Position numbers and translations under genes: made by a program
Origin: Agelas oroides
Taxonomy: Eukaryota > Porifera > Demospongiae > Agelasida > Agelasidae
Assembly: GCA_949130485.1 (NCBI GenBank)
Contig: OX422184.1
Span: 1,962,117 to 2,026,116, forward strand
Reading direction: 5' to 3'
DNA length: 64,000 bases
Shown here: positions 618 to 51,133 of the stretch, piece by piece
Layout of the letters: each line of letters opens with the position of its first letter
How positions within the stretch are numbered: the first letter of the stretch is position 1
Notes under the pieces: generated by a model
Seen by the model: the letters and a program-made list of their open reading frames with translations, nothing else
Databases searched by the model: none
Told to the model about the DNA's origin: nothing

Positions 618-3600
618 ATGAAGTTTAGTGTGGTTACTGTAGTGTCAACATTTTTGATCATAACTCAGGTTAGCAGTGGTTTAAAAAAAATCATATATTC
701 TCATTTTTAGCAAATAAAGACTACCTTCATGCTAAGATAGGTAGTTTGGGCACTGTAAAATCCTGTATCCCCATAAGTCCCATTTCGTGATGGCAAATGT
801 AGGTTTGTTTTATTTTTTTTGGCAGGTCGGTTTCTTGCCACGTGATGCATCCATGGATTACCTCTCAGGATTAGTACTTTAACTGAAGATTCTTCATGAT
901 AACTGTATAATTCAGCTGTGGTGTCAAACTTCAGTAAGTCCTCTCAGGCTTGGAAAGACAGGCTAAAACATTGGGCATACACATGAACTTCTGTGGCTTT
1001 TCATTCATTCATTAATTACTATAATTTTGTCTTTCCACTTGTGGTGTAATTTTCTATCAATTTTTATGCAGAGGCATACAGGTGAAGGCAAATAGCAACC
1101 TAATGCTAATACAAAGCCTGCCGGCAAATAAAAAGAACAAGAGCAACAATACAAGTCATGAACGTTGCTAATATTTACACACAAGAGAGTAAGCAGTAAT
1201 ATAAAGTTTACATTCACAAACAATTCAGTGCATGTACACTTAATAATAAAAAAATTGGAAGAAAGGTTTGTTTTATTTTTTTGGCAGGTTGGTTTCTTGC
1301 CACGTGATGCATCGATAGCTACTCAGCAAAGATGATGTTACAGCTAGACGGAGACTATAGCCTCGTCCCCATGCAGGCCCCGCGCGAAAAATCGGGCGGG
1401 GCCTGAGGATGGACGAGGCTAGACGGAGACAGTACCGTGTCTAGAAAAATTAATGACTAGTTTCTAGGTGGCACTGAACGCTTCCTGGGGAGCGCGAGGC
1501 TTCGCCGAGCATAGAACACGAGGCGGAGAGATGCTCCCGACGCTAGCGGTAGGCTGACGAGCTTCAGCATTGAGGGGCGAGGAAGCAGGGCGCTTCCGCG
1601 AAGTAGCTGGCGTGTCCATCGTTGCTGTGGGCGGTCCGCGTTCGCGGTAGACACTTTAACAGCAGGCAGCCGAGTGGCTTTAAATCTCAGGGGGGGGGGG
1701 TGTCGGGGGCATGTTCTCCCGGAATTTTTTTGAACCTTCTGCAGTGAAATTAATTTTGGCAATGTTTCTTAGTCTATTGGAAAGCGGAAAAATTTTTTAA
1801 AATCTATACAGTCTCGCACGGCGCATTCTTTCACGTCAAGTAAGCCTCAGTTATCTCGCGCAGCATTTAAAATGCATGCGTACTACGGTACGCAATGCGT
1901 GCGTTAGTCCGATGATACGCGCGCAGAAGTTCCTCCCATATCCATTGCCTACAGTCCTAAGAGCCATTATTTCTAGTGAATATCGTACTGCAAGCGACGA
2001 ACGCGCGCAAGGCCAGCTACAAAAATACCATAGCGGAAACTAGTACTCGATCCTCAGTCTTACCTCGATCCTCGGTCACTCCGCCCCGCCCACTTAGCAG
2101 CCTATAAACTAAGCACCAACAGTTGCAGCGCCGACTATGAGCGCGGGTAGAACCTTTTCTGTATGCATTTGTAATAACTGTTGCACTACATATTACACTC
2201 GCTCTTGTTCGCCTTCTTTTCATGCATTACAGATTGCACAACTCAGATCCTGCAGGCCTCGTTATTGTGCTCCTGGTTATTACTTCAACCCGCGTAGTTG
2301 CCGGTGTGAACGACGATGCGGAATAATCCATTGCCAAGGCAACCAGCGACCAAGCCCCATTACCTGCCGCTGTGAGTGTCCAAAATTTTATTGCCCAGGC
2401 AACCAGCGACTCAACCCTAAGACCTGTCGGTGTGAGTGCCCAACACCACATCCAAACTGCTATAACCCACAAGTTTTCAACGATATTTTATGTCGGTGTG
2501 AATGTCCCAGCCCACGACCAAACTGTACATATCCACAAGTGTTTAATAGCTGGACATGTCGATGCCAGTGTCCAAGGGTGATCTATTGTCCAGGCAACCA
2601 GCGATTCAACCCCAATACCTGTCGGTGTGAGTGCCCAACACCACGTCCAAACTGCTATAACCCACAAGTTTTCAACGGTATTTTATGTCGGTGTGAATGT
2701 CCCAGCCCACGACCAAACTGTACATATCCACAAGTGTTTAATAGCTGGACATGTCGATGCCAGTGTCCAAGGGTGATCTATTGTCCAGGCAACCAGCGAT
2801 TCAACCCCAATACCTGTCGGTGTGAGTGCCCAACACCACGTCCAAACTGCTATAACCCACAAGTTTTCAATGGTATTTTATGTCGATGTGAATGCCCCTA
2901 CCCACAACCAAACTGTACATCTCCACAAGTGTTTAATAGCTGGACATGTCGATGCCAGTGTCCAAGGGTGATCTATTGTCCAGGCAACCAGCGATTCAAC
3001 CCCAATACCTGTCGGTGTGAGTGCCCAACACCGCGTCCAAACTGCAATAAACCACAAGTTTTCAACAGTATTTTATGTTGCTGTAAATGTCCCTACGCAC
3101 GACCAAAATGTACATATCCACAAGTGTTTAATGGCAGGACATGTCGATGCCAGTGTCCAGGGGTAATTCGTTGTCCAGGCAGCCAGCGATTCAACCCCAA
3201 TACCTGTCGGTGTGAGTGCCCAAAACCACGTCCAAACTGCTATAAGCCTCAAATTTTCAATGGTATTTTATGTCGGTGCGAATGTCCCAGCCCACGGCCA
3301 AACTGTACCCATCCACAAGTGTTTAATGGCAGGACATGTCAATGCCAGTGTCCAAGGGTGATCCGTTGTCCAGGCAACCAGCGATTCAACCCCAATACCT
3401 GTCGGTGTGAGTGCCCAATACCACATCTAAACTGCTATAAACCACAAGTTTTCAATGGTATTTCATGTCGGTGTGAATGTCCCAGCCCACGACCAAAATG
3501 TACATATCCACAAGTGTTTAATGGCAGGACATGTCAATGCCAGTGTTCAAGGGTGATCTATTGTCCAGGCAATCAGCGATTCAACCCCAATACCTGTCGG

Positions 3601-49400: not shown

Positions 49401-51133
49401 GCTCCAAGCCCCAAATTTTCGATGAAAGCATTTGCCAGTGTCGTTGCCCACATCCACAGCAGAAGTGTACGCAACCTAAAATCTACAGCTCTAAAAGCTG
49501 CCAATGTGAGTGCCCAACTAAACTGACATGTGCACCTAACCAGTACTTCGACCGCCGAACATGTAGTTGCCTCTGCCGAAAGACTCTGTCATGCCCCAAA
49601 CTCAAATTCTTCAACACCACTTCCTGTCAATGCCAGTGCTCATGGGTTGAGAAGTGCAAACCACCGAAATATTTCAGTTACGACTCTTGCAAATGTCAAT
49701 GTCCTCACACGACAAAGAAGTGTTCTGGGAGACAGGTATACGACCTCAACACCTGCAGTTGCAGATGTCCACATATCCAAAAGTGCCCCAAGAATTACGT
49801 CTTTGATCCCGTTGGATGTAGATGTGTATGCAATCTGACATGCACCTATCCCTTCGAACTTAATCCAAGCTCATGTTCCTGTTTCTGTAATCGAGTCTGC
49901 TCGTCCGGATACAAGTTGGACAGGTCAAAGTGCCAGTGCGTCCCACTGAGATGCAGCAATGCAGCAAATGTACAGGAGTGTGGGAAAGCAAGATGTGACA
50001 ATTACCCGAACAAATATTGCGCGTAAGTTTGAACAAGCTAGTGCATGTGAATATCAACTACAGTAGTGAAGCACGATCCTTTGACGCTGGGTCCGTTGAT
50101 GTCGATTTCCACAGCCTCAATGGATTGCTTTGCTATGTATAAGTATACAACTGTACTTACCTCCATGTAGGTTTGCCTTATCATAGTATAGCTTGTCACC
50201 AAGTTGTTGAGTTGCTTAGGTACATGTCCAATGCCACATGTACACATGTTGCTTCACACTCACTAACATGTAATGTACACACACACACACACACACACAC
50301 ACACACACACACACACACACACACACACACACACACACACACACACACACACACACACACACACACACACACACACACACACACACACACACACACACAC
50401 ACACACACACACACACACACACACACACAGATACAACACAAGGACCAAGCAGTGTCACTGTCCCTGCTGTCTCTCTAAGGGAGACCCACGCTATCAGCAG
50501 TGGTGCCTAAGCTGGTCCAGGTACATACATACAAACTCATCTGTCAACCTGTTTCTAAAAATGGTGGCTATAGAAAGGCTTCAGAATTTGAAACAGACTA
50601 AAAATGCTATTCAGAGGTGATTTCAAGCTTTGTGCATAGTCTCATTCCCAGACCTGAGACTTGAGAAGAGAGGGTCTGGTCTCTGGAGGCAAGATTTCTA
50701 TGGCTTCACATAAACGTTTTCCTGCTAACTAATTCGTGTGGGGGAGGCCCCACCCAGCCTAACTGTGCTTTCTACAAAACCTCAAGACCCTATCTGCTTG
50801 TATGGAATCTGGGAATGAGACTAGCTGGATGAGGCCTCAATAAACCCTGTGGAGAATTTCTGATAAAACCAAGCTGGAGTTTAAGCCAATTCACTTTTGT
50901 AATGTATATGCTGTTAAAATAAACTCTGTACTAAGTGATGGCTACTTAGCGTTGTTAAATGCATTTTTGACATAATATTATGCTAAACAAGTTAGCATTC
51001 AACCCACCTTGTGAAATTGGCATGTCTACTACATGTACATAAGTTACTATGACAACATTTGTATTTATACAGGTATGGCTACGGCAAGTGCACCTATGGA
51101 TCCCACTCAAATTATTGCAAGTGGGTCTGTTAA
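46446..51133 (+). CDS. CXCXC gene F: longest secreted cysteine-rich array protein, about 1118 aa
   Basis: Four exons: 46446-46499 (signal MSGVKILGLLVVLLAAII, GTGAGT donor), 46871-50022, 50431-50520 and 51073-51133. Exon 2 opens V-S-E-A-T-N-C and a C-Y-H-G-Y-Y-F-N module resembling genes A and C. It encodes about 46 modules. Eight copies of a 67-residue (201 bp) three-module repeat have cores CTKAQVFNTTSCQCEC, QIFDEDLCKCRC and CPGNQRFNYHTCQCEC. Divergent modules and the E-like C-terminal region follow. Exons 3 and 4 add C-H-C-P-C-C ... YQQWCLSWSR and YGYGKCTYGSHSNYCKWVC. FNTTS and PNCTK sequons recur, so N-glycosylation is plausible. The frame is intact. Secreted structural role is inferred; no enzymatic motif is present. 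Confidence 0.85.
47401..49020 (+). repeat. 201-bp higher-order coding repeat of gene F, eight copies
   Basis: ACAGGTCTTTAACACAACCA recurs every 201 bases, shortening to 195-198 in the later copies that lack one or two codons. All carry the same three-module order. Confidence 0.85.
50279..50430. repeat. Pure (AC)n microsatellite forming the acceptor of gene F exon 3
   Basis: About 150 bases of uninterrupted AC end directly in CACAG, followed by the exon starting A-TAC-AAC. Open frames of repeated Cys-Val or Thr-His are artefacts. Confidence 0.9.
50431..50520 (+). CDS. Gene F exon 3
   Basis: 90 bases, phase 2 in and out, encoding YNTRTKQCHCPCC then LSKGDPRYQQWCLSWS; GTACAT donor as in gene E. 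The joined first codon is GC+A (Ala). Confidence 0.7.
50637..50823. repeat. Foldback TAGTCTCATTCCCAGA ... TCTGGGAATGAGACTA in gene F intron 3
   Basis: Terminal arms are exact inverses. It belongs to the same palindrome family as 59100-59170. Confidence 0.7.
51073..51133 (+). CDS. Gene F exon 4 (terminal)
   Basis: After TTTATACAG it encodes YGYGKCTYGSHSNYCKWVC and TAA. It ends one residue earlier than gene E. Confidence 0.7.

Follow-up and report, generated by a model that had tools for sequence, protein, structure and literature searches.

The 64,000-nucleotide stretch of the genome of the sponge Agelas oroides analyzed here (the window; contig OX422184.1, hereafter contig C2, positions 1962117-2026116, of a 259.3-Mb assembly) shows the right-hand part of a gene cluster, a family that evolves by tandem birth and death and encodes CXCXC-repeat proteins of the Balbiani ring 3 protein (BR3P)/silk-homology type, predicted to be secreted. 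Reading of the flanks indicates that the cluster comprises 19 loci over 124 kb. In the window, 153 strict C-x(9-11)-C-x-C-x-C modules were found on the plus strand versus one on the minus strand, while 40 dinucleotide shuffles of the window yielded a mean of 0.3 strict modules (maximum 3), in agreement with a preliminary description of this DNA, made from its letters alone, that had recognized a shared module of this type on the plus strand. All but one of the plus-strand modules (152/153) fall inside the eight window loci (A, 52; B, 2; B', 4; C1, 0; C2, 9; D, 2; E, 38; and F, 45), and most have a cysteine spacing of 10 (C-x10-CXCXC). The leftover module, at position 55075, adjoins a CA repeat. 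Six-frame translation likewise gave long, Cys-rich open stretches of the CXCXC family on the plus strand, and Tandem Repeats Finder resolved array units of 195, 60, 57, 66, and 201 nt.

The module is that of the Pfam family CXCXC (PF03128; E values from 2.5e-6 to, at best, 9.6e-56). Of the seven plus-strand locus proteins scanned (B was not among them), five matched PF03128 over the curated 15-bit Pfam cut-off (the first open piece of A, as well as B', D, E, and F), while C1 and C2 did not. A genome-wide PF03128 profile search returned no match but missed the controls equally and is hence uninformative, probably owing to the 13-position model. When the genome was queried with the F protein, at least 94 matches were obtained, all located at 1.889-2.012 Mb of contig C2 or 7.865-7.932 Mb of contig C6, and a query with a protein from contig C6 gave at least 91 matches confined to the same two regions.

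Gene models (Table 1) illustrate a common architecture with several variations. Loci E and F each have four exons separated by GT-AG introns, with phases 0, 2, and 2 in both; the additional CHCPCC/YQQWCL exons described earlier were confirmed, as was the end of locus F, and each of the two genes has a fourth exon. Loci C1 and C2 each comprise two exons, the signal exon and a long one. Hydrophobic signal exons followed by phase-0 introns, in phase with exon 2, are present in A, C1, C2, E, and F, and the window family products are predicted from these exons to be secreted. The combination of signal exon, phase-0 intron, and module, previously attributed to all loci, therefore holds for A, C2, E, and F, and for D if its candidate first exon holds, but not for B, which has no established signal exon and a reading frame split over frames, or for C1, which was listed as a module carrier but contains a single CXC motif without a complete module. 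Locus B' had been overlooked, and the cluster, taken to start at position 618, begins roughly 73 kb to the left of the window with locus G (C2:1888905). As the frames of A, B, and B' are broken (they were left unrepaired), three of the eight window loci are not open. An M-type signal exon lacking an obvious exon 2 of its own occurs in four copies, one in the window (Table 1) and three upstream (C2:1946600, 1953255, and 1961358); the upstream copies sit approximately 1 kb before A-type first exons. These orphan exons are candidates for alternative first exons or relics.

Across the whole cluster, 13 loci are open (G, H, I, J, K1, C0, M, N, C1, C2, D, E, and F) and six are broken (K2, K3, O, A, B, and B'). 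Three designs can be distinguished: long arrays (M, N, O, A, B, B', E, and F), short arrays with Tyr/Asn/Gln tails (C0, C1, and C2), and head modules followed by a low-complexity stalk and a C-terminal CXC foot (G, H, I, J, K1, and D). K2 (C2:1918948) is interrupted by an in-frame TGA immediately before its foot, which continues in the same frame beyond the stop, and K3 is a fragment. Stalk composition differs between members, being Arg/Thr/Ser/Pro in G, Pro and Arg/Thr in J and K, Thr/Ser/Arg/Gly in H, and Asp/Ser in D. Long-array proteins are basic (Lys + Arg versus Asp + Glu: E, 150/38; F, 142/72; M, 166/37; and N, 101/17; isoelectric points of 8.7-9.4), while isoelectric points among the cluster proteins computed (I and D excluded) range from 4.7 (H) to 12.0 (G). 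The earlier view of a locally expanded, disulfide-rich, predicted secreted family with diversified tails is thus supported. The Arg/Thr/Ser/Pro stretch of locus G (C2:1888905-1891220) also scores as a grass antifreeze beta roll (Pfam E 6.4e-15), which is probably a composition effect.

Regarding function, we lean slightly toward a scaffold role for the CXCXC rods, in the extracellular matrix of the sponge or in its skeleton glue. For this family, a material function, if putative, is plausible, and a matrix role is our best guess. Each C-x10-CXCXC module would fold as a small disulfide-stapled beta-hairpin, and strings of up to ~50 modules would form long, stiff, and mostly basic rods that could bind extracellular polyanions many-fold, be they heparan sulfate-like chains, silica, or sulfated polysaccharide. 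Adhesion may be tuned by the tails (Tyr-rich, Asp/Ser, or Arg/Thr/Pro), and the head-stalk-foot members may bridge between rods. A predicted model of four window modules (mean predicted local distance difference test score of 90.2) has two short strands per module; disulfides were not read from the model. Weak matches of the window repeats place the VEGF-A heparin-binding domain first among solved structures, both by Foldseek (4deq, E 2.7, 42% identity over 33 columns) and by profile search (1kmx, E 0.015). A phmmer search of the F protein against the PDB gave 11 matches, taken as chance (best E 0.59). The related silk-homology domain is reported to bind extracellular matrix and heparin (PMC10328876 and PMC5816233, both available in part). 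A silicatein-like DNA pattern had no matches, although this was a single pattern that would miss variants.

Likeness to Balbiani ring 3 and to the VEGF-C/D silk-homology region, as proposed in the preliminary description, was upheld. Balbiani ring 3 protein of Chironomus, also of the PF03128 type, likewise contains long arrays of C-x10-C-x-C-x-C modules, a formula given in the portion of PMC5816233 available. Its gene has 38 introns, according to the part seen of PMC4192438, whereas each sponge array lies in one exon; the sponge system further differs in its several tail types, its 19-locus cluster, and its host. The silk-homology domain of VEGF-C/VEGF-D and the heparin-binding domain of VEGF-A share the module formula of the window repeats. 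In contrast to these growth factors, the window genes carry up to ~50 modules instead of a few, and a VEGF domain (PF00341) had no match among nine window proteins scanned at E values up to 1. A cystine-knot pattern likewise did not occur in open frames of at least 60 amino acids over a 154-kb stretch of contig C2. Placement of the modules in a well-characterized, non-structural family, which the preliminary description considered decisive against a structural system, hence finds partial support in the weak VEGF-A match to solved structures and is countered by the lack of a VEGF domain in the scanned window proteins.

The second region matched, on contig C6, holds a sister cluster (Table 1), which resembles cnidarian VEGF-C-like proteins in layout (a knot-like domain, then CXCXC repeats). 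In a predicted model, the N-terminal domain matches PDGF/VEGF first and is predicted to share the PDGF/VEGF fold. Five of the six loci contain C-x-G-x-C, by reading, and four open frames carry the full six-ring-Cys pattern with C-x-G-x-C and C-x-C, a pattern written post hoc; composition shuffles of the three frames tested matched it 24, 36, and 66 times per 200000. Unlike in cnidarian VEGF-C-like proteins, the domain has no CC pair and was missed by PF00341 (none of four members matched at E values up to 10) and by profile comparison (hhalign against PDGF/VEGF: probability 0.8%, score 13.8, exceeded by at least 8 of 60 Cys-fixed shuffles, the best scoring 19.0). Neither phmmer with the protein nor hmmsearch with a profile of the C6 family matched the PDB. 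The genome scan with PF00341 gave a match at one other locus (C2:1368094; E 0.004, below the cut-off), which was judged unrelated from its frame.

The closest matches of the C6 protein on contig C2 are the C-terminal regions of F and E (E 1.6e-10 and 1.5e-9, up to residue 198/207). In E, F, and five C6 loci, the repeat exon stops two bases past its last Cys at a GTRAGT donor, and the following exon starts N-TAY and carries CxCxCC-[VL]-x-K-x(0,1)-[ND]-P-[HR]. Likeness in exon 3 between E/F and C6 was equalled by 6-140 of 2000 shuffles with Cys fixed (ten pairs), and at the end of exon 2 no likeness was found beyond Cys spacing (1124-1636 of 2000 Cys-fixed shuffles scored as high, two C6 rows). 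Shared descent of the two clusters thus rests mainly on intron position and layout. We give even odds to a scenario in which sponges own VEGF-C-like genes (the C6 loci, with a knot and a CXCXC tail) and the window arrays are knot-less relatives, such that silk-homology domain and VEGF architecture alike would be as old as animals and one lineage would have made the tail a structural family.

The same shared features lend some weight to a rival of the scaffold hypothesis, which casts the array proteins as matrix reservoirs for, or antagonists of, the C6 VEGF-like factors, holding or shielding the ligand as the silk-homology domain does VEGF-C. That domain holds VEGF-C inactive and sequesters it (PMC10328876 and PMC5816233, in the parts available), and both the F and E C-terminal matches and the common exon layout, with its CxCxCC-x-x-K exon, would suit such a pairing. 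As the likeness at the end of exon 2 is nil apart from Cys spacing and that of exon 3 is modest, we consider this role unlikely, if the strongest of the rivals to a scaffold.

Purifying selection acts on the family members compared, as judged from their coding sequences. Ratios of nonsynonymous to synonymous substitution (dN/dS; Nei-Gojobori, Fisher P values) ranged from 0.06 to 0.57 overall, and Cys were almost all kept in the pairs compared. The C-terminal region of E/F had a ratio of 0.31 (P = 8e-4; 33/33 Cys kept), and N-terminal regions gave 0.53 for E/F (P = 0.015; 26 Cys kept, 2 changed), 0.24 for E/M (P = 1e-7; 21 kept, 2 changed), and 0.27 for F/M (P = 2e-9; 29/29 kept). Values were 0.06-0.39 among C members (P = 0.006-0.035), 0.32 for J/K1, 0.24 for J/K2, 0.43 for K1/K2 (P = 0.077), and 0.57 for exons 3 and 4 of E/F (P = 0.23). 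Six C6 pairs yielded 0.28-0.39 (all P <0.003), with 32 Cys kept and no more than 1 changed. Two J rows of a second-half comparison were out of alignment and are excluded. A cluster that is mostly relic, with tandem copies decaying without expression, would account for the six broken loci among 19 and for the segmental copies around C1 and C2 (83%-95% identity), but it is improbable given 13 loci with open frames, conserved splice phases, and significant purifying selection among E/F/M, J/K, and C members. The segmental duplication pairs 13712-18779, carrying B-C1, with 20100-28354, carrying B'-C2; the arrays of C1 and C2 are of very different lengths.

Somewhat less probable again is a role as secreted defense or mucus proteins in which cationic Cys-rich rods trap microbes; basic charge, tandem expansion, and tail diversity suit defense secretions also, but the Pfam scans made identified no lectin, protease-inhibitor, or antimicrobial family. 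Metallothionein-like metal binding through CXC motifs, which are generally known to be alike in form, is very improbable, as signal exons, the fixed C-x10-CXCXC spacing, and the hairpin model better fit extracellular disulfides.

The suggestion that the family is undescribed is not supported in that form, since its module is PF03128 and sponge BR3P-like proteins appear in PMC10328876. In the portion of that paper available, sponges are reported to be without PDGF/VEGF, all 11 sponge matches being judged false and 5 of the 11 being BR3P or BR3P-like; these proteins figure there only as false positives of a VEGF survey and, compared by description only, are probably of the same broad kind as the window family. 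The same text gives most cnidarian VEGFs a VHD plus three to five BR3P motifs, and coral proteins annotated as "balbiani ring 3-like" encode VEGF domains (PMC6385260, in part). A VEGF-R1-like transcript is reported from the sponge Halichondria (PMC9798719, in part), and a table row in the accessible part of PMC8662651 ties VEGFR/PDGFR kinases to chordates. No such CXCXC family is named in the available parts of PMC4633127 and PMC12549020, the words VEGF and PDGF are absent from the Spongilla annotation paper (PMC10176882), and among the open-access papers surveyed, mostly by title and the opening of the abstract, none describes such a sponge CXCXC cluster. With the module and BR3P-like sponge proteins already known, novelty seems to lie in the expansion and tail diversity of the cluster and in the VEGF-C-like cluster that is its sister. 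To find the CXCXC module in a VEGF-C-like arrangement in the same sponge genome is surprising in a phylum reported to lack VEGF. According to partial texts of two papers, it is unknown where in phylogeny the silk-homology domain of VEGF-C arose (PMC5816233), and deducing its history may be impossible (PMC10328876); a single sponge genome with both knot-plus-CXCXC genes and CXCXC-only arrays makes this origin directly testable. The arrays also provide a delimited list of candidates for non-collagen proteins in the sponge matrix and skeleton.

Table 1. Features of the CXCXC-repeat loci (window positions unless a contig is given)
Feature	Position	Strand	Remarks
Locus A exon 1	618..668	+	Signal peptide MKFSVVTVVSTFLIITQ, phase-0 donor; similar exon precedes locus N at C2:1947618
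Locus A exon 2	2233..5840	+	52 strict modules; TGA 3685, frameshift near 4190, TGA 4551
Unattached M-type signal exon	8013..8072	+	MNAMKIVGFLVVLLAVLLPV
Locus B	13960..14477	+	Decayed A-type copy, frame split
Locus C1 exon 1	15752..15811	+	Signal peptide
Locus C1 exon 2	16485..16838	+	Single CXC motif, then Tyr/Asn/Gln/His repeats
Locus B'	20330..20739	+	Another decayed copy of the A type, its acceptor lost; in-frame TAA 20620
Locus C2 exon 1	23163..23222	+	Signal peptide
Locus C2 exon 2	23899..24630	+	9 strict modules, 57-nt unit; short Tyr/Asn/Gln tail
Locus D candidate exon 1	28912..28956	+	MESLSYLVLATILVV, phase 0; candidate only
Locus D exon 2	29558..30193	+	Acidic Asp/Ser stretch between head modules and C-terminal CXC foot
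Locus E exon 1	35819..35872	+	Signal peptide MSGVKVVGFLVVLLAAIM
Locus E exon 2	36540..39142	+	38 strict modules; donor phase 2
Locus E exon 3	40207..40296	+	CHCPCCVSKGNPHYQQWC; donor phase 2
Locus E exon 4	41299..41362	+	Ends in stop
Locus F exon 1	46446..46499	+	Signal peptide MSGVKILGLLVVLLAAII
Locus F exon 2	46871..50022	+	45 strict modules; 201-nt higher-order unit
Locus F exon 3	50431..50520	+	CHCPCCLSKGDPRYQQWC
Locus F exon 4	51073..51133	+	Ends in stop
C6 cluster	C6:7864545-7932900		Six loci; cystine-knot-like N-terminal domain, then CXCXC repeats

Several other features were observed in the window. Long CA microsatellites (40004-40205 and 50277-50440) end right at the exon-3 acceptors of E and F, and intergenic minisatellites lie at 30429-31019 (31-nt units), 32251-32843 (98 nt), and 42586-43346 (11 nt). 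A reverse-transcriptase open frame occupies 21031-22302 on the minus strand between B' and C2 (RVT_1, E 9.7e-12), and an inverted 1-kb pair (9970-10970 and 12138-13129) is 96% identical. Rfam gave one tRNA match (18510-18583, 37.7 bits), possibly repeat-derived. Elsewhere in the assembly, cox1 on the mitochondrial contig (C141, 22,436 bp) is split by an intron that holds a LAGLIDADG-like frame and has a TGA within its coding frame; atp9 (named by reading) and 22 tRNA calls in the 20 kb read lie on the same contig. Such a gene set is that expected of a sponge, most likely a demosponge, and rules out a cnidarian, as cnidarians have one or two mitochondrial tRNAs. A second COX1 match without TGA codons (C107:16176-16808) is perhaps a symbiont or nuclear copy.

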